Notes under the pieces: model-generated
What the model was told of the DNA's origin: nothing
Databases searched by the model: none
Seen by the model: only the letters and a program-made list of their open reading frames with translations
Translations under genes and position numbers: made by a program
NCBI RefSeq assembly: GCF_014062315.1
Contig: NZ_JACGLT010000006.1
Span: 1-64,000, forward strand
Length of the DNA stretch: 64,000 nucleotides
Direction: 5' to 3'
Origin: Gelidibacter maritimus
GTDB lineage: Bacteria > Bacteroidota > Bacteroidia > Flavobacteriales > Flavobacteriaceae
Shown here: positions 4,473 to 33,944 of the stretch, one piece after another
Position numbering within the stretch: position 1 is the first letter of the stretch
Layout: each line of letters begins with the position of its first letter

Positions 4473-4514
4473 CTTGGCTGTCAATCCCGATAGCCATCGG
4501 GATTGACAGCCAAG
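4473..4514. repeat. Perfect hairpin with 19-bp arms (REP-like)
   Basis: CTTGGCTGTCAATCCCGAT (4473-4491) is followed by a four-base loop AGCC and its exact reverse complement (4496-4514). Its apex, CCCGAT-AGCC-ATCGGG, resembles the CCGATAGCGATCGG hairpin near 63500 in the htpG upstream region. From memory, CCGATAGC-type palindromes are common in Bacteroidota intergenic DNA. No T run follows, so it is not a canonical terminator. Confidence 0.7.
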
Positions 4515-10116: not shown

Positions 10117-10320
10117 TATTACTAGAAATGTTAATGATAAATTATAGAACGATTTTCGTAAAGATGACACGGACACGTTGAAAACATCATAATTCATCGC
10201 TATTTTATCTGTTTGTTTTTTGTAACATACTGTTTTGATAGGTTAAAAACTATGATTTGAAGCTCCCAATCGATTAAGGACTATAGCGATGTCAATTGCC
10301 TTAAATAATTTAATAAAGCA
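10117..10320. other. Intergenic gap between dehydrogenase and epimerase genes
   Basis: AT-rich, without a gene or a clear terminator hairpin. It may hold a second promoter for the epimerase-oxidase-peptidase genes. Confidence 0.35.
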
Positions 10321-11328
10321 ATGAGTAGAAGTACATTTGTTTGTATTGACGCACATACCTGCGGAAATCCAGTAAGAGTAATTAAAGAAGGCGGTCCTCA
10401 TCTGATTGGAGAAACGATGAGTCAAAAACGATTACATTTTTTAAAAGAATTCGATTGGATTCGGAGAGGCCTGATGTTTGAACCTCGTGGACACGATATT
10501 ATGAGTGGCAGTATCCTCTATCCGCCTCATAATCCTGAAAATGATTTTGCCATTTTATTTATTGAGACCTCAGGCTGTTTGCCGATGTGCGGACATGGTA
10601 CAATTGGTACTATAACCATAGCTATTGAAGAAGGTTTGATTACGCCAAAGGTGCCTGGTAAGATTAGGATGGAGGCTCCTGCAGGCCTGGTGGAGGTTGA
10701 ATATAGCACCACTGGAACTAAAGTGGATTGGGTGCGTTTGATCAATGTTAAGAGTTATCTGGCGGCTGAAGGTTTGAACATTGATTGTCCTGAATTGGGA
10801 GCACTGACTTTTGATGTAGCTTATGGCGGAAACTATTATGCCATAATAGATCCACAGCCAAACTTTTCAGGTGTAAACAATTTTACCGCGGTTAAGTTGA
10901 TTCAATATTCTCAGATATTGAGGGATGAAATTAACCAAAAATATCCAAACATGTTTATCCATCCAGAGAATGATTCTATTAAAGATGTGTCACATATACT
11001 TTGGACCGGAAAACCAACTGATGCTACATCAACATCAAAAAATGCGGTATTTTATGGCGATAAAGCTATTGATAGAAGCCCTTGCGGCACAGGAACCTCC
11101 GCTGTAATGGCACAACGCTATGCAAAGGGCACTCTAAAAATAGGAGAGGAGTTCATCCACGAAAGCTTTATAGGAAGTAAATTTATTGGGAAGATCGTTA
11201 AAGCAACCACGTTAGATGGCAAACCTGCAATTATTCCAAGCGTACAAGGCTGGGCCAAAGTGTATGGGTACAATACTATTATAATTGATGATGACGATCC
11301 GTACGCTTTAGGGTTTCAGGTCATTTGA
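10321..11328 (+). CDS. 4-hydroxyproline 2-epimerase (proline racemase family)
   Basis: 335 residues, the usual size of the proline racemase superfamily. These enzymes epimerise trans-4-hydroxy-L-proline to cis-4-hydroxy-D-proline using two cysteines as acid and base. Both are visible: C90 in the MCGHGTIG motif and C255 in DRSPCGTGTSA. The related trans-3-hydroxyproline dehydratases lack one of these cysteines, so epimerase activity is favoured. The N-terminal FVCIDAHTCGNPVRVI and EPRGHDIMSGSILYPP blocks are also standard. It is followed after 72 bp by the FAD oxidase gene, which would use its product. Confidence 0.9.
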   Translation: MSRSTFVCIDAHTCGNPVRVIKEGGPHLIGETMSQKRLHFLKEFDWIRRGLMFEPRGHDIMSGSILYPPHNPENDFAILFIETSGCLPMCGHGTIGTITIAIEEGLITPKVPGKIRMEAPAGLVEVEYSTTGTKVDWVRLINVKSYLAAEGLNIDCPELGALTFDVAYGGNYYAIIDPQPNFSGVNNFTAVKLIQYSQILRDEINQKYPNMFIHPENDSIKDVSHILWTGKPTDATSTSKNAVFYGDKAIDRSPCGTGTSAVMAQRYAKGTLKIGEEFIHESFIGSKFIGKIVKATTLDGKPAIIPSVQGWAKVYGYNTIIIDDDDPYALGFQVI

Positions 11329-11400
11329 AAATCCTTTAGGGTAAAAGATTTTTTTATTCTTTTGGGGGCAAAGCCAATTTGAGAATCTAATTTTGAATAA

Positions 11401-12648
11401 ATGAACAAGGAAGTCATTATTATTGGCGGCGGAATTATCGGGTTGTGCTCTGCATATTATCTTCACAAAGCAGGACATAACGTATCCATTATAGATCAAT
11501 CCAATTTAGATATGGGCGCTTCTTATGTAAATGCAGGCTTCTTATCGCCGAGCCATTTTATTCCCTTGTCAGCGCCAGGGGTAATGCGGCAAGGAATTAA
11601 ATGGATGTTCAATAAATCAAGTCCTTTGTATATCAAACCACGATTGGATGTCGATTTCATGAAATGGACCTTGGCGTTCAATAAATCCTGTACCGCCAAA
11701 CATGTAAACAAATCCATCCCGATAATTAGAGACGTTACGCTGTTGAGCCAAGAACTATACAGTAGTATAAAGCAAGATGAAGGTTTTCAGTTTCAACTGG
11801 AAAATAAAGGCTTGTTGATGCTCTGTCAGTCGGAAAGAATGCTTGAAGAAGAAGTTAAAGTAGCCGAGTTAGCGCGCCAAATAGGTTTAGAGGCTTCAGA
11901 AATCGGTCTGGACCATTTGAAAAAACTACAGCCTAATGTCCAGTTAAATGTGAAAGGAGCAACTTATTATAAATGTGATTCACACATGACCCCTCAAGAG
12001 TTTATGAGCGACATGAAGACCTATTTAAAAGAATCGAGGGTGGCATTTTTTACCAATGAAAAAGTGAGCGATTTTAAGATGGTAAATGGATATATCACAT
12101 CTATATCAACAAATATAAAAAATTATCGAGCCGACGAATTTGTTCTTGCAGCGGGTTCGTGGAGTTCATTCCTAAGTAAAAAACTATCTTTGCAATTGCT
12201 ATTACAGGCGGGAAAAGGATATCGTGTTAATACTGATCAAGATACGGGGATATCCATTCCAGCCATACTGTCTGAAGCTAAAGTTGCGGTTACGCCAATG
12301 CATGGATTCACCCGCTTTGCTGGGACTATGGAAATAGCCGGGATTAATCAACAAATAAATAAAGCAAGAGTTAATGCCATTGCTCATGCCGTAAGCAAGT
12401 ATTATCCTGAAATCACATTGAGTCAGGAAGATAAAAATAATGCACAGTCAGGGTTGCGTCCAGTCTCACCTGACGGGTTGCCTTATATAGGAAGGTCAAA
12501 AAAGTGTTTTAACTTGACCATTGCAACAGGACATGCCATGATGGGGTGGGGGCTGGGTCCTGCTACGGGTAAATTGGTTTCGGAGGTGATTTCAAACAAG
12601 AAGACCTCATTGAACCTTGATCCGTTTCACCCAGACAGAACTTTTTAA
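11401..12648 (+). CDS. FAD-dependent D-amino acid (D-hydroxyproline) dehydrogenase
   Basis: 415 residues, DadA/DAO-type. The N-terminal dinucleotide-binding fold reads VIIIGGGIIGLCSAYYLHKAGH (residues 4-25), with the acidic residue of the second strand in SIIDQSN. The C-terminal half has GLRPVSPDGLPYIGRS and ATGHAMMGWGLGPATGKLV, as in D-amino-acid dehydrogenases. In this cluster it should oxidise cis-4-hydroxy-D-proline to pyrroline-4-hydroxy-2-carboxylate and pass electrons to the respiratory chain. No signal peptide is seen, so it is probably on the cytoplasmic side of the membrane. It lies 13 bp from the M24 peptidase gene, so the two are very likely co-transcribed. Confidence 0.87.
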   Translation: MNKEVIIIGGGIIGLCSAYYLHKAGHNVSIIDQSNLDMGASYVNAGFLSPSHFIPLSAPGVMRQGIKWMFNKSSPLYIKPRLDVDFMKWTLAFNKSCTAKHVNKSIPIIRDVTLLSQELYSSIKQDEGFQFQLENKGLLMLCQSERMLEEEVKVAELARQIGLEASEIGLDHLKKLQPNVQLNVKGATYYKCDSHMTPQEFMSDMKTYLKESRVAFFTNEKVSDFKMVNGYITSISTNIKNYRADEFVLAAGSWSSFLSKKLSLQLLLQAGKGYRVNTDQDTGISIPAILSEAKVAVTPMHGFTRFAGTMEIAGINQQINKARVNAIAHAVSKYYPEITLSQEDKNNAQSGLRPVSPDGLPYIGRSKKCFNLTIATGHAMMGWGLGPATGKLVSEVISNKKTSLNLDPFHPDRTF

Positions 12649-12661
12649 AATTTAATAATTT

Positions 12662-13876
12662 ATGAAAACAACAGGAATCGGCGGTAGTACAATTGAAGCC
12701 GAATTAAATGCTATCACGCCTAAGGCACATTTAGTAAAGCCAATACAAAAAAGTGAGTTTTATGCACGTATTGATAAAGCGTGTAAATTAATGCAAGAAC
12801 ATAAAGGGGAAGTCATGTATTTAGATGCAGGGACAAACCTGTATTATTTTACCGGAACCAAATGGAGTTCCAGCGAACGTATGGTCGGAGCTTTATTATT
12901 TCCTGATGGAAGTTTACACTATATCGCGCCAAATTTTGAAAGAGGGACAATTTTAGATTTTATGGAGGTTGAAGGTGTCATTCATGGTTGGGAGGAACAC
13001 GAAAGTCCCTATCAATTATTGGCTCAGGTATGCTCAGAAAATGGCGTGGATAAGGGTGTTATCCTTATTGATGAAAGTACGCCGTTTTTTATTAGTGATG
13101 GTATTGCAAAAGCAAATTCAAAATTTGAACTTGTTAATTCTAAACCGATCACTGCGGGATGCCGAATGGTAAAATCGGAAGCTGAAATCGCGATTATTCA
13201 ACATGTCATGAATATTACTTTGGAGGTGCAAAAAGCCGTAGCAAGAATTTTGCATGTGGGCATAAGCGCTAAAGAAGTTACTGACTTCATTCACGAAGCA
13301 CATAAAAGATACGGTATTCCGTCAGGGTCCTATTTTTGTATCGTCTTGTTTGGCGTGGATACCTCATTTCCGCATGGGGTTAAGACACCTAAAGACTTGG
13401 AAGACGGCGAAATGGTTCTGATAGATACCGGTTGCGAATTGCATGGTTACCTCTCGGATATTACTCGCACCTATGTGTACGGAACCATAAAAGCATCGCA
13501 AAGACGTATTTGGAATATAGAAAAAGAAACCCAATTGGCAGCTTTTGATGCTGCACAGTTAGGAAACACATTTTCTTCCATTGATAATGCATCGCGGGTG
13601 GTTATAGAAGCGCATGGCCTCGGACCAGATTATGAATTGCCCGGACTGCCACATCGTACAGGGCATGGTATTGGTTTGGATATTCACGAGTGGCCTTATG
13701 TCATAAGAAATGAAGAGACTGTTATAGAACCTGGAATGTGTTTTAGTATAGAGCCAATGCTTTGCGTGCCAGATGAATTTGGGATTCGCCTTGAAGATCA
13801 TATTTACATGACTGAGCAAGGACCAAAATGGTTTACACAACCCATGCATTCCATTGACAATCCATTTGGGGAATAA
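12662..13876 (+). CDS. M24 family Xaa-Pro (prolidase-like) peptidase
   Basis: 404 residues. It has an N-terminal creatinase-type domain (about 1-180, with YLDAGTNLYYFTGTKWSSSER) and a C-terminal pita-bread domain. Metal ligands of the M24 family are visible: VLIDTGCELHGYLSDITRTY (two aspartates), HRTGHGIGLDIHEWPY (histidine), MCFSIEPML (glutamate) and GIRLEDHIYMTEQG (glutamate). The family cleaves the bond next to proline in di- or short peptides. Within a hydroxyproline catabolic operon a role in releasing Pro/Hyp from collagen-type peptides is a sound inference. No signal peptide is seen, so it acts in the cytoplasm on imported peptides. Confidence 0.88.
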   Translation: MKTTGIGGSTIEAELNAITPKAHLVKPIQKSEFYARIDKACKLMQEHKGEVMYLDAGTNLYYFTGTKWSSSERMVGALLFPDGSLHYIAPNFERGTILDFMEVEGVIHGWEEHESPYQLLAQVCSENGVDKGVILIDESTPFFISDGIAKANSKFELVNSKPITAGCRMVKSEAEIAIIQHVMNITLEVQKAVARILHVGISAKEVTDFIHEAHKRYGIPSGSYFCIVLFGVDTSFPHGVKTPKDLEDGEMVLIDTGCELHGYLSDITRTYVYGTIKASQRRIWNIEKETQLAAFDAAQLGNTFSSIDNASRVVIEAHGLGPDYELPGLPHRTGHGIGLDIHEWPYVIRNEETVIEPGMCFSIEPMLCVPDEFGIRLEDHIYMTEQGPKWFTQPMHSIDNPFGE

Positions 13877-14121
13877 TATATAGATCTTGGTTTTTATATT
13901 TTTTGCGTACAATTAACTTCTGAACATTCCGATGGAAAGAAGACTTTGTATAATTCAAATAGCGGTATAATGAGCCAAGTGCGTACTGTGTTTTATAGTC
14001 TGGGTTTTCGGAGGTTGTCTTAACAGAAACTTTTGACCAACATTCGGAAATTCAGATAATCTATAGGGTGCTGTTTTTAAATCACCTAAGTGCTTTTTGC
14101 CTACCCTACCAATATAAAAAA

Positions 14122-14967
14122 TTAAGCTCTTTCCTTTCTGAACTCAGAAGGTGTGTTTTTCTTAATTTCCTTAAACTGTCTATTAAAATTGGATATGTTT
14201 TTAAATCCAGATTCATAGGCGATTTCGGCAATGGTAAATTTGTTGTTTGATAGCAATAACTTAGTGGCATGCTCTACGCGTAATTCGGTCAAGAACTGAA
14301 AATACGTTTTATTCGTTCTTTTTTTAAAGTATTTACAGAAGGCATTCTTGGTCATGTTGGCCTTTTCTGAGACCGCTTCTAAAGTAATATTGGTGTTAAA
14401 ATGGCTCATTGTGAATTCAAAGATATTTCGCATTCGATTGCCTTCGTGGTCCGTGTACTGCTTGTCATAAACAAAAGAGGATAAGCTTTTGTAGTCACAG
14501 GTAGATGTCATTTTTAATAATTCCAACAAAATTAAAAACTGGTCGAGTTTTTCAGACAATCTTAATTTTAGGAATAAGTTGGCCATTTCCTCTTTCTCTG
14601 AATTTACTTTAAAACCATGTGTGGCTCGCATAAAGAATGCCTGTAAACTCTTAGTCTCTTCCAGTTCAAAAAATTTTTCGCCAAAAGAATCTTTTGTAAA
14701 GAACAAACTTAACATCTGCGATGTCTTATAAGCACTGGTATCACTTTTAAGAAGATGGGGTAGATAACTGCCAATGACCAAAATATCATTGGGCTTATAG
14801 AAATTGATGGTATCTCCAACAATCAACTTGCCCTCACCTTCAATGATATAGCTCAACTGGATTTCTTCATGTTGGTGTAATTGGTCATAGAATGACAGCC
14901 CAATGTCTTCCTGATAGACCAGAGCGTCATGTTCCGGTTTCGGTATTTTAAAAGGTAATACTTTCAT
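14122..14967 (-). CDS. AraC family transcriptional regulator
   Basis: 281 residues. The N-terminal half is cupin-like (FYDQLHQHEEIQLSYIIEGE, then GKLIVGDTINFYKPNDILVIG), a typical ligand-sensing fold. The C-terminal 100 residues form the double helix-turn-helix: ITLEAVSEKANMTKNAFCKYFKKRTNKTY and then KFTIAEIAYESGFKNISNFNRQFK. It is transcribed on the minus strand between the two halves of the hydroxyproline cluster, convergent with the M24 gene and divergent from the deaminase gene at 15217. It is therefore the likely local regulator. The inducer may be hydroxyproline or an intermediate (inference). Confidence 0.9.
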   Translation of the reverse strand: MKVLPFKIPKPEHDALVYQEDIGLSFYDQLHQHEEIQLSYIIEGEGKLIVGDTINFYKPNDILVIGSYLPHLLKSDTSAYKTSQMLSLFFTKDSFGEKFFELEETKSLQAFFMRATHGFKVNSEKEEMANLFLKLRLSEKLDQFLILLELLKMTSTCDYKSLSSFVYDKQYTDHEGNRMRNIFEFTMSHFNTNITLEAVSEKANMTKNAFCKYFKKRTNKTYFQFLTELRVEHATKLLLSNNKFTIAEIAYESGFKNISNFNRQFKEIKKNTPSEFRKERA

Positions 14968-15106
14968 ATCGATTGATCTTATAGCTGAATTTTACAAAAA
15001 TCTGGGGTTCTACGGTTTTGTACCTATTTATATTTTATGGTGAAACTTGTAGTTTCGGTATTTGGCTAGAAATCCATTCTAATATTACTCAAAAAAAATG
15101 TTATTT

Positions 15107-15132
15107 ACTATAGGTAGGACAATATAGTATTA
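15107..15132. promoter_or_regulatory. Candidate AraC-regulator site upstream of the deaminase gene
   Basis: CTATA and TATAG half-sites (15109-15113 and 15124-15128 region) flank GGTAGGACAA in the AraC/deaminase divergent region. The ten-base ACTATAGGTA and the nine-base ATAGTATTA found here each recur upstream of the dehydrogenase gene (8211 and 8371). The match is short in AT-rich DNA and could be chance. Confidence 0.25.
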
Positions 15133-15216
15133 ACACTTGATAAATATGAGCTATAACACCACAGGTTTCTTAATTAAATTTGGTAGGTAATTAAGACAGC
15201 AATAAAATTTATATCT

Positions 15217-16131
15217 ATGAGTGTAAAATGGGAAGGCATTATGCCAGCAGTCACAACAAAATTTAATGATGATGATACTTTAGATTTTGCAATGTTTGAA
15301 ACTAATTTAAAAGCACAACTCGATGCTGGTGTACACGGTATTGTTTTGGGAGGTACCTTGGGTGAAGCAAGTACCTTAACAGAATCTGAGAAACGTAGTT
15401 TGACAAAATCTACAGTTGACATGGTTAAAGGAAAAGTTCCTGTAATGATCACCTTGGCGGAACAATCTACCAAAGCGGCGGTTAAGGCAGCAAACATGGC
15501 GGAAGAAGACGGTGCGTCAGGGTTAATGATGTTGCCTCCAATGCGTTATAAATCCACGGACAGAGAGACTTTGGAGTTTTTCAACTCAGTTGCCATAAAC
15601 ACGTCGCTACCGATAATGGTGTATAATAATCCCGTGGATTATAAAATAGAAATCACCCATAAAATGTTTGATGAGTTATTAAAACATGACAATATAGAAG
15701 CGGTGAAAGAATCGACACGAAACACAATGAATATCACCCGTATAAAAAATCGTTTTGGCGATAGGTTAAAAATTATGACCGGCGTTGACACCATTGCTTT
15801 TGAAAGTATGGTACTTGGTGCTGATGGTTGGGTGGCGGGCTTGGTCTGTGCATTTCCTGAAGAAACCGTGGCGATGTACGAATTGATTAAAGCCGGACAA
15901 ATTAAGGAGGCCTTAGACATTCATAGATGGTTTATGCCATTGTTTGAATTGGATATTGTTCCAGAATTGGTGCAGAACATAAAATTGGCTGAGGTTTATA
16001 CTGGTCTTGGAACTGAAAATGTACGGGCACCACGCTTACCACTTATTGGGGACGAAAGAAAATTTGCTATAAAAACAATTGAGGAGAGTCTAAAAACCAG
16101 ACCTGCTTTACCAGATTACAAAAATCTCTAA
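15217..16131 (+). CDS. Delta1-pyrroline-4-hydroxy-2-carboxylate deaminase (DapA family)
   Basis: 304 residues, a dihydrodipicolinate-synthase-family TIM barrel. The Schiff-base lysine is K164 in IEAVKESTRN and the conserved tyrosine Y136 is in IMVYNNPVDYK. The N-terminus MSVKWEGIMPAVTTKFNDDD and the GGTLGEASTLTESE loop are typical. The family is broad (aldolases, dehydratases, deaminases). Placed with an epimerase, a D-hydroxyproline dehydrogenase and an alpha-ketoglutarate semialdehyde dehydrogenase, the deaminase of the hydroxyproline route is by far the best assignment. The RLPLIGDERKFAIKTIEESL tail also fits that subgroup. It is transcribed divergently from the AraC gene. Confidence 0.85.
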   Translation: MSVKWEGIMPAVTTKFNDDDTLDFAMFETNLKAQLDAGVHGIVLGGTLGEASTLTESEKRSLTKSTVDMVKGKVPVMITLAEQSTKAAVKAANMAEEDGASGLMMLPPMRYKSTDRETLEFFNSVAINTSLPIMVYNNPVDYKIEITHKMFDELLKHDNIEAVKESTRNTMNITRIKNRFGDRLKIMTGVDTIAFESMVLGADGWVAGLVCAFPEETVAMYELIKAGQIKEALDIHRWFMPLFELDIVPELVQNIKLAEVYTGLGTENVRAPRLPLIGDERKFAIKTIEESLKTRPALPDYKNL

Positions 16132-16184
16132 GTGCTATTCTTCGTTTAATATTCAACGGAAATCCATAAAAAGAACAACCTAAA

Positions 16185-16223
16185 AAATCTCATTAGCTAA
16201 GCAGTTTTAGTTAATGGGATTTA
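16185..16223 (+). terminator. Hairpin terminator after the deaminase gene
   Basis: AAATCTCATTAGCTAA pairs, with two mismatches or wobbles, with TTAGTTAATGGGATTT and is followed by a T-rich stretch. It lies 55 bp after the stop codon. Confidence 0.5.
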
Positions 16224-16353
16224 TTTGCTTTTTGGTTTATCAGTTTTGAATGTTATATTTTGATAATTGTCAAAGCCCGAAGTGGGCGTTCAGAGTAAAT
16301 GGGTTTATCCAATTTATAAAGACAAAATTAATAATCATATATCCATAACCTTT

Positions 16354-17310
16354 ATGAAAAATATCGTCCAAATTGATGCAGATTTTGTTGAGAATAACAC
16401 AAATTTCCCAAATTTAATCACGGCCATAGAAAATATGTTTGCCAATAAGGAACTTTTAGTGCCAATGCGACATCATCATGATTTTCCCAATCCGGAAGTT
16501 GGTATGGAATCCACGCTATTATTGATGCCTGCTTGGGATCCAGGGAAGGATGCGGGTGTGAAAATAGCGACAGTTAGTCCAGCCAATGGAAAATTTGATT
16601 TACCTGCCATTCAAGCCATTTATATTTATTTAGATGCCTTAAAAGGCTCAGTTAAGGCCTTCATAGAAGCTAAAAGTTTAACCGTGAAACGCACTGCCGC
16701 GGCATCAGCCTTGGCATCGAAATTTCTAAGTCGAAAGAACTCCAAATCATTATTGATGATTGGAACTGGAGCTTTATCTCCAAACCTTATTAAGGCTCAC
16801 GCAAGTGTAAGGCCCATAGAGCAGGTTTTTGTTTGGGGCAGGAATTTTGACAAAGCAAAGGCTATCTGTGAGGACTTAAGTGAGGAAAGTTTTGAAATAG
16901 TACCTATAAAAACCATTGAAGCTAAAATTAGCGAAGTTGACATCATTTCGGCTGCAACGCTTTCACCGACACCACTTGTTTTGGGCAAGTACCTAAAACC
17001 TGGTCAACATATCGATTTGGTTGGGGCTTATCGTCCTGATATGCGAGAAGCCGATGATGATGCCATAAGAAAATCGGAAGTTTTTGTAGATACTTATGAA
17101 GGCGGACTAAAGGAAAGTGGTGATATCGTCATTCCGTTAAAAACTAAAGTATTGGCGGAGCAGGATATTAAAGCCGACTTATTTTTAATGGCTGCTAAAA
17201 AACATCAAGGTAGAAGTAATGATGAACAAATTACATTATTCAAGTCTGTAGGACACGCTTTAGAAGATCTTGCAGCCGCTACGCATTATTATAATTTATT
17301 TAAAAAATGA
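16354..17310 (+). CDS. Ornithine cyclodeaminase/mu-crystallin family reductase
   Basis: 318 residues from the ATG at 16354. A longer frame opens at a TTG (16267) but its extra 29 residues do not look like the family, so I reject that start. The NAD(P)-binding part contains SLLMIGTGALSPNLIKAHASVRP followed by VFVWGRNFDKA. ADIISAATLSPTP-like and GQHIDLVGAYRPDMREADDDA blocks follow. The family includes ornithine cyclodeaminase and delta1-pyrroline-2-carboxylate reductases. In this cluster a reductase acting on pyrroline-2-carboxylate from 3-hydroxyproline or D-proline is the likely role, but the substrate is inferred only. Confidence 0.85.
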   Translation: MKNIVQIDADFVENNTNFPNLITAIENMFANKELLVPMRHHHDFPNPEVGMESTLLLMPAWDPGKDAGVKIATVSPANGKFDLPAIQAIYIYLDALKGSVKAFIEAKSLTVKRTAAASALASKFLSRKNSKSLLMIGTGALSPNLIKAHASVRPIEQVFVWGRNFDKAKAICEDLSEESFEIVPIKTIEAKISEVDIISAATLSPTPLVLGKYLKPGQHIDLVGAYRPDMREADDDAIRKSEVFVDTYEGGLKESGDIVIPLKTKVLAEQDIKADLFLMAAKKHQGRSNDEQITLFKSVGHALEDLAAATHYYNLFKK

Positions 17311-18869: not shown

Positions 18870-20414
18870 TTAATTAATGGCTGAGTTGGAGTTAATCTCT
18901 GATAACGGTATTGGCAAATAAGCGTGAGATGCCGCATTAAATCCGCTTCTGCCTGCGTCCTGCATGGCTTGGTCCAACATATTCCATCGTCTTAAATCAA
19001 AAAACCGTACAGATTCTAAGGTTAATTCCATGGTTCGTTCATGGATGATCTGTTTTTTGACATCAGCTTGAGAGGTTACTGTTATTGGAGGCATGTAGCC
19101 ATGAACAGCCCTTAAGTTATTAATGATGTCTATGGCCTGAGGTGTAGCTCCGGTTTCGTTCAGAGCTTCGGCATACATCAGTAAAACATCAGCATATCGC
19201 ATCAATACCACATTCACACCAACATAGCTATTGTTCCAAACATAATTAGGTAACCATTTTCTAAAATAAACGGCATCATCATTTGTGTTTTCATAAGTTT
19301 CCAACATTAGTTCGTCCCATGTACTTCCCTGCATTTGGTTGGTATCAGGATCATTATAAAACGGATCTCTAAAGTATAGCGAACCGTAAAGTCTATTGTC
19401 ATACAGACCGTTGCTGGCAATCATGCCTTCACTTTTCATTTCGTTGACAATGTCCATGGTGGCGGCAATTCCGCCCCATCCACCTACAGACCAATCGCCT
19501 ACAAAAGCATGTAATCTTGTCGAATTATTTGAAGTGGCATCTGCGGTTTTAAACTGGAGTTCAAAGATGGATTCTTTATTGTTTTCATTTTCGCCATTAA
19601 ACAGACTTGAAAAATCAGACTCTAAGGCATAAGAACCCGCTGAGCCTTCAACAATAGGCTTAAACGCCAAGGCTGCATTTTCAAAGTCAGAGGCTTCAGA
19701 TGAAGAAGGATCGCCAGCTTTATACATATAAGCTTTTCCTAAATAGGCCAGGGCGGCTCCTTTTGTGGCTCTTCCAGGCTCGGTATTGTCCACTGTTTGT
19801 AACATCTCGGCAGCTTGTTTGAAGTCGTTAATGATCACTTCCCAAGCTTCTGGACGAGTGGATAACGGTTTATCTAAGGTCTCGTTGGAGATTAACTCAG
19901 TCCTTAAGATAATTTGCTCATAAAGCGTCAATAATTTAAAGTGGTAATAGCCTCTTAAAAAAGTAGCTTCTCCAATTATTTGCTTTTTCTCGGCATCCGA
20001 TATTTTGTCAGAGGTCATTTCTCCAACTTTGGTAATAACTTGATTGGCAAAATTTAATCCTTTATAGTTGGTGGTCCATATCACATCTATAAAAGTATGG
20101 CCATTGGTGTAACTGAAATTATATATGGACATCCAATGGGCATAGTTGCTCGCATCCGGTCCTGGTAAAGCATAATCAGATCTGAAATATTCGACCACTG
20201 GACGTCCTTCTTGCCAGCCATCCCAGAAATTGCTTCTTGATTCCAATTCTGAATAGGCAGCTACTAAACCAGACTGCGCGTCTTCGGCATTTCTCCAAAA
20301 ACTGGCAGAGGTTAATTGATCAACTGATGTTTGTTCTAAGAAATCATCGTCATTACATGATGTTGTAGTTGTTAATATTAAAGCAACTAAAACTATTTTA
20401 TATACGTTTTTCAT
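18870..20414 (-). CDS. SusD/RagB family glycan-binding lipoprotein
   Basis: 514 residues. The lipoprotein signal peptide is MKNVYKIVLVALILTTTTSC with the lipidated cysteine followed by NDDDFLEQ. SusD features are DFLEQTSVDQLTSASFWRN at the N-terminus, the TPR-like IIGEATFLRGYYHFKLLTLYEQIIL (about residues 145-170), LMYAEALNETGATPQAIDIINNLRAVHGY and HERTMELTLESVRFFDLRRW near the end. It is a cell-surface partner of the SusC transporter, capturing glycan for import. It lies 20 bp downstream of susC on the same strand, forming a transcriptional unit. Confidence 0.95.
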   Translation of the reverse strand: MKNVYKIVLVALILTTTTSCNDDDFLEQTSVDQLTSASFWRNAEDAQSGLVAAYSELESRSNFWDGWQEGRPVVEYFRSDYALPGPDASNYAHWMSIYNFSYTNGHTFIDVIWTTNYKGLNFANQVITKVGEMTSDKISDAEKKQIIGEATFLRGYYHFKLLTLYEQIILRTELISNETLDKPLSTRPEAWEVIINDFKQAAEMLQTVDNTEPGRATKGAALAYLGKAYMYKAGDPSSSEASDFENAALAFKPIVEGSAGSYALESDFSSLFNGENENNKESIFELQFKTADATSNNSTRLHAFVGDWSVGGWGGIAATMDIVNEMKSEGMIASNGLYDNRLYGSLYFRDPFYNDPDTNQMQGSTWDELMLETYENTNDDAVYFRKWLPNYVWNNSYVGVNVVLMRYADVLLMYAEALNETGATPQAIDIINNLRAVHGYMPPITVTSQADVKKQIIHERTMELTLESVRFFDLRRWNMLDQAMQDAGRSGFNAASHAYLPIPLSEINSNSAIN

Positions 20415-20434: not shown

Positions 20435-23400
20435 TTAAAATGCCAATTGAACTCCAAAAATTATCGATTTATATTTCGGATATAAATTAATATCAATACC
20501 TCTTGACAATACACTTCCTCCAACTTCAGGGTCTAAGCCACTATATTTGGTAAATGTAAATAAGTCCTGTCCGGTAAGGTAAACTCTGAATTTATCCAAC
20601 TCTAAAGTTTCTAGAATATTGGTCGGTAACGAATACCCAATCTGAATGGTCTTGATTCTTAAATAATCACCTTTTTCTAAAAATCGCGTTGAGGCTCTAC
20701 TGTTTCTGTTAGGATCGCCCAATACAGCTCTTGGAATGTTGGTGTTGGTATTGGAAGGTGTCCAAGCGTTCTCCGCTTCAGCTCTGTAATTCCTTCCGGT
20801 ATCTAAACTTAACAATCTAAAGTCATTGCCGTTATAAATTTTATTGCCTCCAACACCTTGGAAGAATATATTGAAGTCAAATTTCTTGTAATCGGCTGCA
20901 AGACTCAAACTGTATTCGTATTTAGGTATTGCGGTGCCTTGATAGGTTTCGTCCATTGAATCTATTACACCATCACCATTTTGATCTACAAATCTAATGT
21001 CTCCAGGAGAGGCATTTGGTTGCGCACCGTGAGCATCAATTTCGGCCTGTGATTGGAAAATGCCATCGGCTACAGGTAAAAAATAGGCGCCAGGTTCATA
21101 GTCTACTTGGGTTTGATTCACAAAATGATCCGATCCGAACAATAAACCAATACCATATAATTTTTGATTGGCGTTACTTAGTTTTGTGACTTCACTGTTA
21201 ATGGTGGTAAAGGTTCCAAAAGCCGAGTAACCAAATTCGCTGTCTTTATTGACATAGCCCAATTCTAATTCCAATCCTTTATTTTCAAATTCACCAACGT
21301 TTACAATCGGATTGTTGACCCCGCTTGATGGGGAGACCTCTTTTGTAATGAGCAAATCTTGAGTAGTTGTACTGTAATAATTGATGGCCCCTTTCAACTT
21401 ATTGCGCAATGAGGCAAAGTCGATTCCGAAGTTTGATGAGGTGTTCGTTTCCCATTGAAGATCGTCATTCTGCAAATCGCGAGCGATACTTCCTAAATAT
21501 GAGGTTTGTGGATTTCCAAAAACGTAACCTCCATTGCTCCTGTCTTTTCCTTGAGAGATAAGGGCTATATAATCATAATATCCTAAAGCACTATCATTAC
21601 CCGCTTGTCCCCAGCTAAAGCGTAGTTTTAGGAAGTTGAAGATATTTTGATTCTTCATAAAATCTTCATCTGTTATCTTCCAACCAGCAGCTACTGATGG
21701 GAAAACACCGTATTGATTGTTTTTTCCAAATTTTGAACTGCCATCCCTTCGGACACTTGCTTGAAATAAGTAGCGATCATTGTAGGCATAATTGACCCTT
21801 CCAAATTGTGATACCAATGCATATTCTGCGTTTGTTCCTTCGGCAGAATAAGTGCCGTCGCCAAAAGCATTCATAGTGTTGAAACTTGGATCTAATATTG
21901 TAGCTGGGATTTTATCGCCATTCTCATCAAATTTATAACCTTCGGCTTGAACATAGGTCTCCTTAAATGGTTCAGAAATTCTTTGATATCCTGCCAATAA
22001 ATTAACCGAATGCTTACCTATATCAAACTGGTAATTGAGCGTATACTCTTGATTTAACCTTCTAAATTCGCTGTTGTACTCAGAAACAAAAGCGTATTCA
22101 TTCTGAGGATTGTCATCAATATCCCTTACCTGAAATGGAGGATGAAAAGCATAAGTATAAGTATCTCTGTTGGCCAAGGAGAAGTTTGCGTTGGCATTTA
22201 GTCCCTCAATTATTTCATAAGTAAAGCCTACATTTCCTAAGAAATACTTCATCTTGGTGTAGCCATCAATAATAGCAGCTTCACCAACTGGATTTCGATG
22301 GTCAGGTAGATCGCCACTTCTATAACCATATCCTGATGGTTTAGACGGATCTAAAACAGGAATCAAGGGTGATATGAAATAGGTTTCCCTAAGGGAGAAT
22401 TTATAATCCTCTTGATTTGTTTCACTATAATTTAAACTCGTATTGATTTTTAATTTCCCTTTCGTGGATGAAAGGTTGGCATTGATACCTTTTTTGGTAA
22501 AGCCAGAACCGATTAAGATTCCTTTTTCATCAGCGTAACTACCAGCTACACTATAATTGATATTATCTGATGCGCCACTGACCCGAACATTCAATAGGTT
22601 TAATTGGCCGGTTCTATGAGTTTCATCAATCCAATTAGTATTTACATTGGGTGGGTTTTGAACATACTGCGGTAGACTTGCACCTGCATTCTCGTACATC
22701 TGCCTATGTACTGAGACATAACCATCAGCATCAAGTAACTTCATGTCCTCTCTAGCTGTATTGGAACTTAAAGAACTTTCAATCTCGATTTTTGTTTTGC
22801 CAGCTTTACCCTTTTTTGTGGTAATGATAATGACACCATTAGCGGCTCGTGTTCCGTAAATAGCACCAGAAGCCGCGTCTTTTAAAACTTCAATGGACTC
22901 AATATCATTGGCATTTAAAAAATACGGATCAGCTTGTACGCCATCAACAATATAAAGCGGTTGATTGTTTCCAAAGCTTCCAATCCCTCTAATGGTGATA
23001 TCAGAAGTTGAGCCAGGACTTCCAGAAGAAGCCGTGACCGTCACACCCGACACCCTGCCCTGAAGTGCATCTACCGGATTTGTGGTGACCACTTTAGTGA
23101 GGTCTTCGCTTTTGACGGAGCTTATGGCCCCAGTAACATCACTTTTCTTTTGGGTACCATAGCCTACAATTACGATTTCATCCAAATCTTCAGCACTTTC
23201 TTGTAATGATACATTGATGGTTGTTTGAGTGCCTACCGTGATTTCCTGAGTTGAAAAACCTAGGTAACTATATACTAATATAGTTTGGCTGTTTGGTACT
23301 TCAAGAGAATAATTTCCGTCAAAGTCTGACTGTGTTCCAACAGAAGGATCGCTTTTGACCATAACCGTTGCTCCTGCGACAGGTATTCCAGCATTATCTG

Positions 23401-23530
23401 TAATAGTTCCTTTCACCAAAATGCCTTGAGCATGCGTGTTGGTCATAAATCCAAAAGACACAAATACAAAAAGTAATAAAAACAGACTTTTATAAGTGTG
23501 AATTTGATTTTTTGATTGTTGTTTTTTCAT
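20435..23530 (-). CDS. SusC/RagA family TonB-linked outer membrane transporter
   Basis: 1031 residues. The signal peptide comes first, then a carboxypeptidase-regulatory-like beta sandwich (GTITDNAGIPVAGATVMVKS, about residues 38-115). A TonB box-like DEIVIVGYGTQKKSD follows, then the plug domain (GRVSGVTVTASSGSPGS, then IYGTRAANGVIIITTKKG) and a beta barrel ending in GVQLAF. There is no STN domain, so it does not signal through an anti-sigma factor. The pair with SusD imports an oligosaccharide. The associated glycosidases (GH37/63-like, GH2) lie on the other side of the divergent regulator. Confidence 0.96.
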   Translation of the reverse strand: MKKQQSKNQIHTYKSLFLLLFVFVSFGFMTNTHAQGILVKGTITDNAGIPVAGATVMVKSDPSVGTQSDFDGNYSLEVPNSQTILVYSYLGFSTQEITVGTQTTINVSLQESAEDLDEIVIVGYGTQKKSDVTGAISSVKSEDLTKVVTTNPVDALQGRVSGVTVTASSGSPGSTSDITIRGIGSFGNNQPLYIVDGVQADPYFLNANDIESIEVLKDAASGAIYGTRAANGVIIITTKKGKAGKTKIEIESSLSSNTAREDMKLLDADGYVSVHRQMYENAGASLPQYVQNPPNVNTNWIDETHRTGQLNLLNVRVSGASDNINYSVAGSYADEKGILIGSGFTKKGINANLSSTKGKLKINTSLNYSETNQEDYKFSLRETYFISPLIPVLDPSKPSGYGYRSGDLPDHRNPVGEAAIIDGYTKMKYFLGNVGFTYEIIEGLNANANFSLANRDTYTYAFHPPFQVRDIDDNPQNEYAFVSEYNSEFRRLNQEYTLNYQFDIGKHSVNLLAGYQRISEPFKETYVQAEGYKFDENGDKIPATILDPSFNTMNAFGDGTYSAEGTNAEYALVSQFGRVNYAYNDRYLFQASVRRDGSSKFGKNNQYGVFPSVAAGWKITDEDFMKNQNIFNFLKLRFSWGQAGNDSALGYYDYIALISQGKDRSNGGYVFGNPQTSYLGSIARDLQNDDLQWETNTSSNFGIDFASLRNKLKGAINYYSTTTQDLLITKEVSPSSGVNNPIVNVGEFENKGLELELGYVNKDSEFGYSAFGTFTTINSEVTKLSNANQKLYGIGLLFGSDHFVNQTQVDYEPGAYFLPVADGIFQSQAEIDAHGAQPNASPGDIRFVDQNGDGVIDSMDETYQGTAIPKYEYSLSLAADYKKFDFNIFFQGVGGNKIYNGNDFRLLSLDTGRNYRAEAENAWTPSNTNTNIPRAVLGDPNRNSRASTRFLEKGDYLRIKTIQIGYSLPTNILETLELDKFRVYLTGQDLFTFTKYSGLDPEVGGSVLSRGIDINLYPKYKSIIFGVQLAF

Positions 23531-23617
23531 GTTAGTAATTTCTTTATTAGTTAGCTGAAACTTCGGTTTAACTTAAGTTTAAGAATACCAAATATGAAAT
23601 TAATTTGAGACAAAACA

Positions 23618-23647
23618 TTGTAAATCACCTTTACTTGACCTTTACAA
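23618..23647. promoter_or_regulatory. Candidate operator upstream of susC
   Basis: An inverted repeat TTGTAAA - 16 bases - TTTACAA, enclosing CACCTTTACTTGACCTT (23626-23642). The same 17 bases occur exactly, on the other strand, at 25596-25612 in the regulator/glycosidase divergent region. It lies about 90 bp upstream of the susC start, a sensible place for an activator site. Confidence 0.65.
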
Positions 23648-23790
23648 CCTATATAAAATTTGGTTTTATTAAGGTTTTTGAAATCTTAACATTGATGTTT
23701 AAGTAACTGATTATGTGGGTATAATTTACTGATCCGTTTGTGTTGTAAGAAGAGGTGAAAGCAAAATGGTATGAGAAATAACCTTATAAC

Positions 23791-25485
23791 TCAAATGTTT
23801 TCTAAAAAAGTTACAAGATTGTCTTTTGACTCCAAGCCGAGTTTTTTTCTTAATCGATGTCTGCCAATTTCTACGGAATTTAAAGAGATATTATTAATGT
23901 TGGCAATTTCTTTGGAGCTAAGTTTGAGTTTGACCTGTACTGCTAGCTGAACATCCTTATCCGTTAAGTGCGGAAATTTTTCTTTGATTTTAAACAAGAA
24001 GTCGCTTTGCAGATTTTCTATATTGGCATGGAAGCGTTGAATGTCTTCGTTAAAATCAAACTTAAACGTATATTCTTTTATAAGATTATCGATGTTTTTT
24101 TTGAGCTCTTTTAAATCGGTGAATTTTAAGTTTTTTAAAGACTTGGTGAAGTCTTTATATATGGAGGTGCGTTGCGAGATAAACAAGGCTAAGTTTGTGA
24201 GTTCCTTCTGGCGGAATTCTAATTTGTGTTCAAGGTTCTCGCGTTCTAAAGATTGTGTTTTTAGTTTCTCTTTAGATAGTCTGTGGTTTTGTAGGTAAAG
24301 GGCTTTCTTCTTTTTAATATTATTCCAGAGACTTGCAATAATTAAAATAGCAATAATTGCCAATAAGATTGAGCCAATAAGTAAGAAGTTTCTTTTTTGG
24401 GCTTCTAAGTTACGTTCTTGCTCCAATAACTTTATTTCGTTTTCACGACGTTCGGCTTCGAATAGAATCCTCATTTCTGCGAGCCTTTCACTTTCTGTGT
24501 TCGAGAAAATTTCAGAGGTTTCATCAATGTATTTCTTATAGTAATTATAGGCCTCCCTATAATTGTTTGTTGCTACATAATAATCGGATGTGATTCTATT
24601 GTTCTCTAAAATTAATTCCTTATTGTTTTTTATGGTTTGAATAATCATCCGCGATTCTTCCAGTAAAGCATAGGCTTTTTTAAAATCTTCCTGTTTCAAA
24701 TAAACAATGGAAAGTTCATGGAGTATATAAACTTTTTTGTGATCGAATTTGATTTCATTGGTAATCGCTAGCGCCGATTCTAAGTATTTTATGGCCAAAT
24801 CAAGGTCGTCGATTTTACGATAACAGATGCCCATATTGGTCATGGCCTCGGCAATTCTGTCCTTGTTGTCGAGCGCTTCGATGAGTTCTAAGGATCTCTT
24901 AAAAAATGATAATGCTAAATTACAATCGCCTTTCCCCTCATAAATCAGTCCTATACTATTGTAACTGTAGGCAATCCGTTGTTTAGAGCCTATTCTTTCG
25001 TGTATTTTGAGTACTTCCGTATGATATTCTAAGGCTTTGTCAAAATATCCAATGTCATAATAGAGCCATCCAAGCGTGCGTAGGGTAAAAGCTAAATCGT
25101 AGTCATTTCCTATCTCTTTCCGAATTTCTAAAGACTGTAATCCATATTGTAATGCCTTGTCATAAATGTCATTAAACAAATAGCCTTGGCAAAGATTGAT
25201 AAGGGCCAAACCTTCTTGCTCTTTTTGATTAAATTCCTTTGAAAGCTGTAAGGCTTCAGAAGCATATTCTATGGTTTTGTCAGGGTTGATTGACCAAAAG
25301 ATCTCTGCAATCCTATTTAACAAAGGTGTTTTGTCCGCGCGATTTACCGTTGGCAATACGGTTAACAAACTGTCCAGCTCAACTTGCGAGTCGGCTGGAT
25401 TCTCATCCCATATATTCGTTTGTGCCTGTGTTGTAAAACAGAGACATATAAAGGTGAAAAGAACAAAATGTGTCAACGTCTTCAT
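23791..25485 (-). CDS. TPR-containing LuxR-type transcriptional regulator
   Basis: 564 residues. A signal peptide (MKTLTHFVLFTFICLCFTTQ) is followed by about seven TPR repeats (for example ALINLCQGYLFNDIYDKALQYG). A single transmembrane segment follows at about residues 355-375 (FLLIGSILLAIIAILIIASLW). After it come a coiled coil and a C-terminal helix-turn-helix (LSSKEIANINNISLNSVEIGRHRLRKKL). This is the Bacteroidota layout of a membrane-bound sensor with periplasmic TPR and cytoplasmic DNA-binding domains. It lies just upstream of susC on the same strand and divergent from the glycosidase operon. It is the likely regulator of both, and may act through the shared 17-bp site (inference). Confidence 0.88.
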   Translation of the reverse strand: MKTLTHFVLFTFICLCFTTQAQTNIWDENPADSQVELDSLLTVLPTVNRADKTPLLNRIAEIFWSINPDKTIEYASEALQLSKEFNQKEQEGLALINLCQGYLFNDIYDKALQYGLQSLEIRKEIGNDYDLAFTLRTLGWLYYDIGYFDKALEYHTEVLKIHERIGSKQRIAYSYNSIGLIYEGKGDCNLALSFFKRSLELIEALDNKDRIAEAMTNMGICYRKIDDLDLAIKYLESALAITNEIKFDHKKVYILHELSIVYLKQEDFKKAYALLEESRMIIQTIKNNKELILENNRITSDYYVATNNYREAYNYYKKYIDETSEIFSNTESERLAEMRILFEAERRENEIKLLEQERNLEAQKRNFLLIGSILLAIIAILIIASLWNNIKKKKALYLQNHRLSKEKLKTQSLERENLEHKLEFRQKELTNLALFISQRTSIYKDFTKSLKNLKFTDLKELKKNIDNLIKEYTFKFDFNEDIQRFHANIENLQSDFLFKIKEKFPHLTDKDVQLAVQVKLKLSSKEIANINNISLNSVEIGRHRLRKKLGLESKDNLVTFLENI

Positions 25486-25591
25486 GAATCAGAATTTCTT
25501 ATTAACAGAGCTGTACTTATACTTTTTAGAATGATTTGCGTGTTATCAAATATCGACAATATTAATTTAATAATTTTAATCAAAGAGGCAT

Positions 25592-25620
25592 TTGTAAGGT
25601 CAAGTAAAGGTGAGATTTAC
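25592..25620. promoter_or_regulatory. Candidate operator in the regulator/glycosidase divergent region
   Basis: Carries on the minus strand the same 17 bases, CACCTTTACTTGACCTT (25596-25612), as the site upstream of susC. The flanks also correspond (GTAAAT before and ACAA after), with small indels. It lies 72 bp upstream of the glycosidase start and about 110 bp upstream of the regulator start. Confidence 0.65.
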
Positions 25621-25683
25621 GTTATTGTCAATAAAAATTCGAAATTTGCTATGTCATAATATAAATGGATTTAAAACTTTGAA

Positions 25684-27714
25684 ATGGTTAAAAAGATGTA
25701 TCTGAAAACAATGGCCAAATATTTAATTGCACTCGGGATGTTGTTTAATTTGAGTTGCAATTCTTCAAAAGAAAAACAGAAAACTGAGGACACAAATAAT
25801 TTCCTGGATTTCAGTGAAAACATTTTGGATTATCATATTATACCGAAAGATGCCAAAGATAGGTCAGGTCTTATGTTTTCTGATCAAGGCGCTTGGTTTG
25901 CCTATGGGATGCCTGAAGATACAAGTGATGTGATTGGCTTTACAGGGCCTTTTTTAATGACGCAACAAAACGGGATTTGGTTAAGTACTTCTTTTATTAA
26001 TTCTATGATTCAGGTGGACAACGCCCCTGAATCATTAAATACAGATTCATCACGTAGTTATTCCAGTCACTTGGAAATGCATTATTCAAGCAATAAAATA
26101 GCTGTTGATGAAACCTTGTTTTTCAAAAACGGGCACACAGCTTTATTGCAGACCAAAATCAAGAACACTGGCAACGAAACAATCGATGTGGAAGTGCTTT
26201 ATGAAAATGCACCAATATTGATTGAAGGTATTTCATTATCACAAAATAATCACACCATCACGATTAATTCTTCAAAAACAAATGCCGTCGGCTACCTCAC
26301 TTTTCCTAAAAACACGAAGGTTGAATTGGTCGATAGCTTATACTACAAAGCAAAAGACGTTTTAACATTAAATCCCAACGAGACCAAAGAAATTGTTGTG
26401 GCGCAAACCTTTATTTTTCCTGAATATTCTTGGGAAGAGGAGCAACAAAGTATAACAAACGTGAATTTTGATTCTTTATTTGAGGCTCGAAAAAACGAAA
26501 AGAATGCTCAGTTAAAAGCCATTATTGAAAATAGAAAACCAGAATTTAAGGAGGATAAATATGCTGGAGTTCTGGCAAAATCACATTTGACTTTACAAAA
26601 CAACTGGCGAATCCCTGCAGGGGAATTGACCAATGAAGGCTTGTTTCCGAGTTATCATTATATAGGCTTCCACGGCTTTTGGGCCTGGGATTCGTGGAAA
26701 CATGCTGTTGGATTATCCTATTACAATATTGACTTGGCGAAAAATCAAATGCGCGCCATGTTCGATTTTCAGAGTGATGATGGATTTATAGTCGACTGTA
26801 TTTTTCGAGACACCACCATTGAAGCGCATAACTACCGAGATACGAAACCGCCACTTTCGGCTTGGGCGGTAGCTCATATCTACGAAAAGGATAAAGATTT
26901 GGAATTTGTAAAAGAGTTGTATCCAAAAATTAAAAAATACCACGAGTGGTGGTACACCAAACGCGATCATGACCAAGATGGTCTGGCTGAGTATGGTTCT
27001 ACGGACGGCACCGTAGTTGCTGCAAAATGGGAAAGCGGGATGGATAATGCCATTCGTTTTGACGATTCCAAAATTCTTAAAAACGGAGAAGGGGCGTATT
27101 CTTTGGATCAGGAAAGTGTCGATTTAAATGCTTATTTATATGCTGAAAAGCTCTATTTAAGTGAATTGGCAGAGATAATCAATAAATTAGAGGAGGCAAA
27201 AACCTATAAAGACGAGGCAGCAATTTTAAAAGATAAAATCCAAGAGCAATTTTTTGACCCCGAAGACGGTTGGTTTTACGACACCACTCTTGACGGTAAA
27301 ACCTTTATTAAAGGTGAAGGAAGTGAAGGTTGGACCGCACTTTGGGCAAATGCCGCAACACAAGAGCAAGCAAATGCTGTAAAACTTAAAATGATGGATC
27401 CTGAAAAATTTTATACTAAAGTGCCATTTCAAACCATGAGCGCAGATCATGAGAAATTCAATCCACTAAGAGGTTATTGGAGAGGACCAAACTGGCTGGA
27501 TCAAGCTTATTTTGGAGTTCAAGGCCTGCGTAATTACGGATTTAATACCGAGGCAGATCAAGCGACCATTCAAATTATTGAAGGAGCCGATGGGGTTTTA
27601 GGCAAAGGAAAAGCCATTCGTGAAAATTACCATCCCATTACTGGAGAAGGCTTAAATGCTCAAAATTTCAGTTGGAGTGCAGCACATCTTATCATGCTAT
27701 TACAAAACGACTAA
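25684..27714 (+). CDS. MGH1-like glycoside hydrolase (GH37/GH63-type) lipoprotein
   Basis: 676 residues. The lipoprotein signal is LGMLFNLSCNSSKEK. The N-terminal part is beta-rich (about 40-260). The C-terminal (alpha/alpha)6 barrel carries GFHGFWAWDSWKHAVGLSYY, YRDTKPPLSAWAVAHIYEKD, YGSTDGTVVAAKWESGMDN and GYWRGPNWLDQAYFGVQG. These aromatic and acidic blocks are those of the trehalase/mannosyl-oligosaccharide glucosidase clan (GH37 and GH63). Possible substrates are an alpha-glucoside, trehalose or glucosyl/mannosyl-glycerate, and the sequence does not decide. As an outer-membrane or periplasmic lipoprotein it would act on glycan brought by SusCD. It abuts the next gene (TAA then ATG), so translation is coupled. 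Confidence 0.82.
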   Translation: MVKKMYLKTMAKYLIALGMLFNLSCNSSKEKQKTEDTNNFLDFSENILDYHIIPKDAKDRSGLMFSDQGAWFAYGMPEDTSDVIGFTGPFLMTQQNGIWLSTSFINSMIQVDNAPESLNTDSSRSYSSHLEMHYSSNKIAVDETLFFKNGHTALLQTKIKNTGNETIDVEVLYENAPILIEGISLSQNNHTITINSSKTNAVGYLTFPKNTKVELVDSLYYKAKDVLTLNPNETKEIVVAQTFIFPEYSWEEEQQSITNVNFDSLFEARKNEKNAQLKAIIENRKPEFKEDKYAGVLAKSHLTLQNNWRIPAGELTNEGLFPSYHYIGFHGFWAWDSWKHAVGLSYYNIDLAKNQMRAMFDFQSDDGFIVDCIFRDTTIEAHNYRDTKPPLSAWAVAHIYEKDKDLEFVKELYPKIKKYHEWWYTKRDHDQDGLAEYGSTDGTVVAAKWESGMDNAIRFDDSKILKNGEGAYSLDQESVDLNAYLYAEKLYLSELAEIINKLEEAKTYKDEAAILKDKIQEQFFDPEDGWFYDTTLDGKTFIKGEGSEGWTALWANAATQEQANAVKLKMMDPEKFYTKVPFQTMSADHEKFNPLRGYWRGPNWLDQAYFGVQGLRNYGFNTEADQATIQIIEGADGVLGKGKAIRENYHPITGEGLNAQNFSWSAAHLIMLLQND

Positions 27715-33883
<6,169 letters not shown>

Positions 33884-33910: not shown

Positions 33911-33944
33911 CAGGGTAGCTCTAATCAGCTGCCCTTGCTTTTTT
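33911..33944 (+). terminator. Terminator of the glycosidase operon
   Basis: AGGG-T-AGCT and AGCT-G-CCCT arms around a CTAATC loop, followed by TGCTTTTTT. It overlaps the 3' end of the convergent Lrp gene. Confidence 0.6.

Follow-up and report, generated by a model that had tools for sequence, protein, structure and literature searches.

Locus organization

The first 64,000 positions of contig NZ_JACGLT010000006.1 of Gelidibacter maritimus (the window hereafter, forming the start of a 272-kb contig in a 4.7-Mb genome) contain a gene for a 564-residue regulator located between a susC/susD pair and a glucosidase operon, and a 17-mer, CACCTTTACTTGACCTT, that occurs at 23626-23642 (+) and again at 25596-25612 (-), exactly where the original prediction had placed it. 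The two copies very probably represent a putative activator-binding operator of the regulator encoded between them, as judged from sequence comparison. The genes of the locus are as follows.

18870..20414 (-), susD-like protein, predicted second gene of the susC operon
20435..23530 (-), susC-like TonB-dependent transporter, predicted target of putative operator 1
23791..25485 (-), regulator of 564 aa with a hydrophobic N-terminus (likely a signal peptide), a tetratricopeptide repeat (TPR) domain, a membrane segment at about 366-386, and a C-terminal LuxR/GerE-type helix-turn-helix (HTH)
25684..27714 (+), GH63-type glucosidase, with E. coli YgjK as its nearest solved relative; predicted target of putative operator 2
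27715..30741 (+), fusion of an APH kinase, an M23 domain, and a class-III aminotransferase fold, predicted hydroxylysine kinase/phospho-lyase
30752..33883 (+), LacZ-type GH2 beta-galactosidase (NF052611, 1010.4 bits, cut-off 999), with the start taken as the first ATG of the open reading frame (ORF) listed from 30716

The gap between the site and the gene start measures 95 bp for susC, close to the roughly 90 bp given originally, and 71 bp for the glucosidase. The copies had been described as lying in opposite orientation, which merely mirrors the opposite directions of the genes: relative to its own gene (susC on the minus strand, the glucosidase on the plus strand), each copy points the same way, and the second copy reads toward the glucosidase operon, not toward the regulator gene. 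The exact common word extends to 18 bp, AAGGTCAAGTAAAGGTGA, and no third copy of the 17-mer was found in the window at up to three mismatches, with 0.14 expected. Because first-order Markov sequences of the same length (n = 20) hold 0-5 exact 17-mer repeat words each, the repeat alone constitutes weak evidence, and the case for the site is made by its position and conservation. Other exact inverted 17-mer words in the window lie at 4473-4514, 47327-47344, and 60851-60868, with two near-self-complementary palindromes among them.

Conservation at related regulator loci

Related loci were collected by a regulator-alignment search limited to one genome per species, yielding 20 loci from Gelidibacter, Flaviramulus, Gaetbulibacter, Wocania, Winogradskyella, Lutibacter, Arenibacter, Maribacter, another member of the Flavobacteriaceae, and one member of the Saprospiraceae, with the closest regulator homologues being those of Gelidibacter species. 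Comparison of the upstream regions of the orthologous susC and glucosidase genes, a check proposed together with the original prediction, showed both sites (0-3 mismatches) to be conserved at 18 of the 20 loci, one before susC and one before the glucosidase gene. At seven of these 18 loci (L042, L043, L044, L045, L048, L050, and L051), SusC is just 37-41% identical to that of the window and SusD is likewise very different; the sites are kept. The HTH of the regulator is nearly invariant among the site-bearing homologues and differs in the Saprospiraceae homologue (L053), one of the two exceptions, which is 38% identical overall and in which the site is absent within three mismatches and was not visible in the two stretches inspected by eye. 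For the other exception, W. arenilitoris (L049), no susC or glucosidase match was obtained in the stretch examined around the regulator.

W. arenilitoris does have three operator-like sites away from the regulator and outside ORFs of at least 120 aa. One (L092:7995) precedes susC, susD, and an M43 protease gene; one (L093:6722) precedes a sulfatase gene, with GH63- and GH2-like genes further down; and one (L094:10657) has no nearby gene behind it (1.4 kb), its spacing of 30 also being atypical. A wider regulon scan with AAGGTNNNGTAAAGGT in the other genomes (21 of 22 named sets) returned 10 off-locus matches outside W. arenilitoris, and the nine inspected all fall inside ORFs of at least 120 aa, on which basis a wider regulon in these genomes was rejected.

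Anatomy of the putative operator and promoter spacing

The architecture of the site is that of a direct repeat, GTAAAGGT-N3-GTAAAGGT, with an 11-bp period. In a seedless 8-mer count covering 13 loci picked as representatives of the 20, GTAAAGGT was the sole 8-mer present in 26 of 26 upstream regions, with 14 being the maximum reached in 200 shuffles. The susC promoters contain two perfect copies of GTAAAGGT 11 bp apart in 12 of 13 cases, and the glucosidase promoters contain one perfect copy in 12 of 13 cases and two in the remaining one, with a weaker AAGGT 11 bp off. The TTGTAAA-16-TTTACAA frame noted earlier around the susC copy is indeed present, at 23618-23647, but as an operator feature it is incidental, being found in only one of 20 susC promoters, namely the window's own; an inverted-repeat operator was therefore rejected.

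Downstream of the site, a TTTG word occurs at a nearly fixed distance. Over 50 sites, selected for AAGGT, GTAAAG, at most four mismatches, and TTTG 28-42 nt downstream, and after removal of identical windows, the distance between the 17-mer and TTTG was 33 nt in 28, 32 nt in 20, 34 nt in one, and 30 nt in one. In Flavobacterium psychrophilum, the sigma-A box TAnnTTTG is placed at -12 to -5 (PMC9723704), and the downstream box found here fits this sigma-A -7 box. The predicted starts and operator positions below were derived by transferring the box location described there to the promoters in the window.

23625..23645 (-), putative operator 1, susC promoter, GTAAAGGT-CAA-GTAAAGGT-GA, two perfect half-sites 11 bp apart, at about -61 to -41 from the predicted start
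25594..25613 (+), putative operator 2, glucosidase-operon promoter, with a perfect half-site and a weaker one, at about -59 to -40 from the predicted start
23589..23596 (-), predicted -7 box of the susC promoter, CATATTTG, 33 nt from the 17-mer to TTTG, with the predicted start near 23584
25641..25648 (+), predicted -7 box of the glucosidase promoter, GAAATTTG, 32 nt from the 17-mer to TTTG, with the predicted start near 25653

A position just upstream of a -33 element is common for an activator. Because the predicted operator lies at about -61 to -41, immediately ahead of the would-be -33 element, its placement suggests a role in activation.

Co-occurrence of the site with the regulator

The strict pattern AAGGTYRAGTAAAGGTG, built solely from the sites of the window's own genome, occurs in four of the 299 family genomes and its reversed control in two, and the four with the pattern are all among the regulator carriers. 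The regulator itself (E<=1e-80) was detected in eight of the 299; at the order level, with E<=1e-100, two of the 395 genomes had it, neither of them new. A looser pattern, AAGGTNNNGTAAAGGT-N32..35-TTTG, occurs in 8 of 299 genomes, which are precisely the eight regulator genomes, with 18 sites in total, and its reversed control in 3 of 299, one being a regulator genome. The looser pattern was settled after the sites of all eight regulator genomes were known, and the informative part of this result is therefore that the remaining 291 lack it.

The glucosidase (E<=1e-120) is more widespread, being found in 31 of the 299 genomes; the eight also having the regulator carry the site-plus-TTTG pattern, and the pattern is absent from all 23 regulator-less glucosidase genomes (glucosidases 48-64% identical). 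Furthermore, GTAAAGGT lies within 600 bp upstream of the glucosidase gene at 7 of 7 regulator-bearing loci versus 0 of 23 regulator-less loci, with the 31st glucosidase genome (W. arenilitoris-like, G006) giving no locus for this count. In 7 of the 23 regulator-less loci, a hydroxyproline-type gene lies inside the 600-bp upstream stretch. The eight regulator genomes represent five genera and are related, and since the pattern was also tuned on these sites, the counts are given without a probability; values of 7e-16 and 1.3e-7, obtained by treating the genomes as independent draws, were discarded for these reasons. The site thus tracks the regulator and not the glucosidase gene, and together with the conservation at 18 of 20 loci this co-occurrence supports the earlier reading of the repeat as an operator, here a predicted site.

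Sites in the window's own genome and a paralogous locus

A scan of the whole genome, also proposed originally, showed that the 17-mer is not scattered, so that neither of the two outcomes named originally as refuting the operator was observed. At up to three mismatches, 15 matches were obtained (three exact, one with one mismatch, one with two, and 10 with three), compared with 28 for the reversed-pattern control, so that the ten three-mismatch matches are at chance level. The five best sites all fit the strict pattern, for which the own-genome control count was 0. Two of them are those in the window, and three are on the small contigs C22 and C25, which appear to form one paralogous locus, likewise equipped with such a regulator.

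These contigs encode a second copy of the regulator (77% identical), a second susC (90%), and a second susD (89%), as well as an M43 protease that looks secreted and contains GEVED and PKD domains, and the three sites precede the second regulator, the M43 protease gene, and the second susC. The site preceding the second regulator is followed by a remnant that resembles the beginning of the glucosidase gene and contains stop codons. Because of this remnant, C22/C25 looks like a duplicate of the window locus from which the glucosidase was lost. A stretch of 2926 identical bases (L016:8056-10981 and L017:1-2926), which takes in the beginning of the M43-PKD protease gene with the 89 bp preceding it, is located at the ends of both contigs and reflects either a recent duplication or an assembly repeat. 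The C-terminal part of a group II intron maturase is encoded at L017:8541-9203, beside the second susC.

Domain structure of the regulator

The TPR match in Pfam covers residues 67-279 of the regulator, with the MalT-like TPR family PF17874 scoring 47.5 bits (cut-off 45). Hydropathy analysis gave a single strong peak at 366-386 in addition to the hydrophobic N-terminus. GerE matched the isolated C-terminal 72 residues with 24.7 bits, above the Pfam cut-off of 23.5, and the whole protein with 20.4 bits, below it. Among 12 homologous C-terminal ends, 11 match GerE at 0.01 and five also weakly match Sigma70_r4_2. The HTH domain profile gave no match to solved structures at 0.01, and no Pfam match to AraC, histidine kinase, receiver, or ATPase domains was found in the regulator (at 0.001 for AraC, kinase, and receiver). 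In NCBIfam, the sensor kinase FimS ranked first, but its 82 bits are far below the cut-off of 600; the aligned residues, 33-396, comprise the sensor and membrane part. These features point to a predicted topology in which the TPR domain lies in the periplasm and is joined by one membrane helix to the HTH in the cytoplasm.

Locus genes and predicted substrate

Collagen hydroxylysine bears Glc-alpha1,2-Gal (PMC8626586), and each of the enzymes encoded downstream of putative operator 2 can be assigned a candidate step in the use of this glycan. The glucosidase matches the YgjK structure 3d3i at 1.5e-74, as well as the Pfam families MGH1-like (4.7e-65) and Glyco_hydro_63 (9e-11). Its E647 aligns, in a strong stretch, with a Glu of YgjK, for which Glu727 is the catalytic base, and its D454 aligns with an Asp of YgjK in a 17-residue stretch scored below zero. 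Asp501 is described as the catalytic acid of YgjK, and the enzyme as solved with galactose at subsite +1 (PMC7263609). From this alignment, the likely base appears to be kept, and the likely acid is probably kept too, with a weak alignment there.

The fusion protein matches PRK06148 ("hypothetical protein") at 1146.5 bits (cut-off 1128), and the best solved match of its lyase part is the ethanolamine-phosphate phospho-lyase 6tor; judging by the protein itself, hydroxylysine and ethanolamine are both possible as substrates. In W. arenilitoris, the fusion gene (first 442 residues compared) is preceded on the same strand by genes for CoA-transferase subunits, an aminotransferase-like protein (below cut-off), and 3-oxoadipyl-CoA thiolase, and it follows a gene for L-piperidine-6-carboxylate dehydrogenase (816.9 bits, cut-off 730). 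This dehydrogenase acts on the cyclic form of aminoadipate semialdehyde, the product of 5-phosphohydroxylysine lysis. Because of this gene context in relatives, assignment of the fusion as a hydroxylysine kinase/phospho-lyase is favored.

In six regulator-less genomes (L129, L130, L134, L140, L142, and L143), the glucosidase gene is located just downstream of genes for a hydroxyproline epimerase/dehydratase homologue and for a homologue of the pyrroline-carboxylate reductase encoded in the window. In the window, a 4-hydroxyproline epimerase (10321-11328; 568 bits, cut-off 376) and a pyrroline-2-carboxylate reductase (16267-17310; 376 bits, cut-off 322) are encoded within a hydroxyproline catabolism cluster at 8593-17310, which has its own AraC-type regulator. 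Control of this cluster by the same site was rejected: when up to 3 of the 13 fixed bases of the site-plus-TTTG pattern were allowed to differ, the sole other window match was at 7678, with 3 wrong (no shuffle control).

Proposed mechanism and alternative explanations

In the proposed mechanism, a breakdown product of glycosylated collagen would enter the periplasm and be sensed by the TPR domain. Two HTH domains would then occupy GTAAAGGT-N3-GTAAAGGT next to each other, about 40-60 bp ahead of the start, and RNA polymerase would be recruited by the bound regulator both to the susCD operon and to the operon for the glucosidase, the kinase-lyase, and the galactosidase. Glc and then Gal would be cleaved from Glc-alpha1,2-Gal-hydroxylysine by the enzymes of the locus. 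The hydroxylysine would be phosphorylated by the fusion protein, which would then eliminate phosphate together with ammonia, yielding aminoadipate semialdehyde. This whole chain, including the collagen-glycan substrate, is considered reasonably likely on the sequence evidence, whereas the operator itself is rated clearly higher.

Several points weigh against these assignments. The glucosidase-side copy usually has just one perfect half-site, and the W. arenilitoris regulator is found without an adjoining site. The sites used to tune the looser pattern included those of all eight regulator genomes, and since the search for related loci started from the regulator, the conservation there partly reflects shared ancestry. 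For the 7 of 23 regulator-less loci in which another gene fills the 600-bp stretch, the promoters may lie further upstream. With respect to the substrate, the glucosidase scores below the NCBIfam YgjK cut-off (354.6 versus 625); the three of six epimerase homologues that were scanned have trans-3-hydroxyproline dehydratase as their best match, below the NCBIfam cut-off; the sulfatases of the W. arenilitoris cluster are not explained by collagen; and both the predicted substrate and the predicted ligand are derived from gene content.

Because the link to the TPR regulator is one of predicted binding, the site could instead belong to another transcription factor that also controls the locus, either the AraC-like protein encoded at 14122, the Lrp-like protein encoded at 33925, or one encoded elsewhere, and direct repeats are also predicted for the AraC-type hybrid two-component systems (HTCS) of Bacteroides (PMC3878776). 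However, the site occurs in exactly the regulator-bearing genomes of the 299, and the AraC and Lrp genes were each matched at just 1 of 20 loci (flanks of up to 10 kb per side; either gene could lie further out). Moreover, the hydroxyproline cluster beside the AraC gene (window 8593-17310) has no copy of the operator within two mismatches. Control by another factor is thus regarded as unlikely.

The distance to the -7-like box is nearly constant (48 of the 50 sites, which were selected for TTTG within 28-42 nt, have 32 or 33 nt), and the sequence between the site and the box is partly conserved; both features would also be expected if the word were a core-promoter part for an alternative sigma factor and not an operator. 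This explanation is judged very improbable: the downstream box fits the ordinary sigma-A TAnnTTTG (PMC9723704), and five sites in a 4.7-Mb genome, co-occurring with one local regulator, suit a dedicated activator better. A leftover of duplication or gene conversion between the two promoters would account for their similarity beyond the 17-mer, and the genome does carry a duplicated locus. However, the site is kept at 18 of 20 loci from several genera, and the columns flanking the promoter on either side hold little information, so that such an origin is given almost no credence. An operator of the local TPR regulator remains the best explanation for both copies.

Significance and comparison with known systems

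Overall, the locus is, on balance, more likely than not a dedicated Bacteroidota utilization locus for the collagen disaccharide Glc-alpha1,2-Gal-hydroxylysine, with a predicted one-component membrane TPR-LuxR sensor and a tandem operator of 11-bp period, in which the substrate class and the operator type would both be undescribed. It provides a candidate operator for the sensor architecture of TPR domain, membrane helix, and LuxR-type HTH, and it points to a bacterial collagen-glycan route linking sugar uptake with hydroxylysine and hydroxyproline breakdown. If this assignment is correct, the regulator would act as a natural sensor for products of collagen breakdown, and its regulon could be mapped from sequence with the motif. 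In the open-licence literature (titles and abstract openings), none of the matches listed concerns such an operator or a bacterial collagen-glycan utilization locus, and none of those listed for bacterial hydroxylysine catabolism, collagen glycans, and MalT boxes concerns this site or locus. The earlier remark that operators of this regulator type are poorly described agrees with these searches, in which no described site for TPR/membrane/LuxR-HTH sensors appeared among the matches listed. Nothing among the same matches describes the 11-bp period, a LuxR-type HTH combined with a TPR sensor, or a gene set of the collagen type.

Direct repeats before susCD operons are an idea already known, since such repeats were predicted for SusR-like regulators of Bacteroides (Ravcheev 2013, PMC3878776). 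As predicted for the regulator here, these proteins combine periplasmic sensing, activation of susCD-type operons, and predicted direct-repeat sites, but the predicted centers of their repeats are 67 or 77 bp apart, compared with the 11-bp period found here. In addition, the SusR DNA-binding domain is described there as resembling no known transcription factor domain, whereas the C-terminal domain of the present regulator has a LuxR/GerE match. The AraC-type HTCS of polysaccharide utilization loci are likewise sensor-regulators with direct repeats before their target operons; however, their predicted repeats are about 21 bp apart on average (PMC3878776), and the regulator here is of TPR and LuxR type, with the HTCS domains not matched.

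The present regulator shares the MalT-like TPR match and the LuxR HTH with MalT of E. coli, but differs from it in having no ATPase match in Pfam. MalT is cytoplasmic, contains an ATPase domain, and has asymmetric boxes in direct repeat. As for the substrate, an animal hydroxylysine kinase/phospho-lyase was reportedly described by Veiga-da-Cunha in 2012, and the predicted overall chemistry of the locus resembles that of the animal collagen-glycan route. However, the animal protein-glucosylgalactosylhydroxylysine glucosidase is a GH65 enzyme (PMC8626586), whereas the glucosidase here is GH63-like, and in this locus a single fusion protein contains the predicted kinase and lyase together with an M23 domain.
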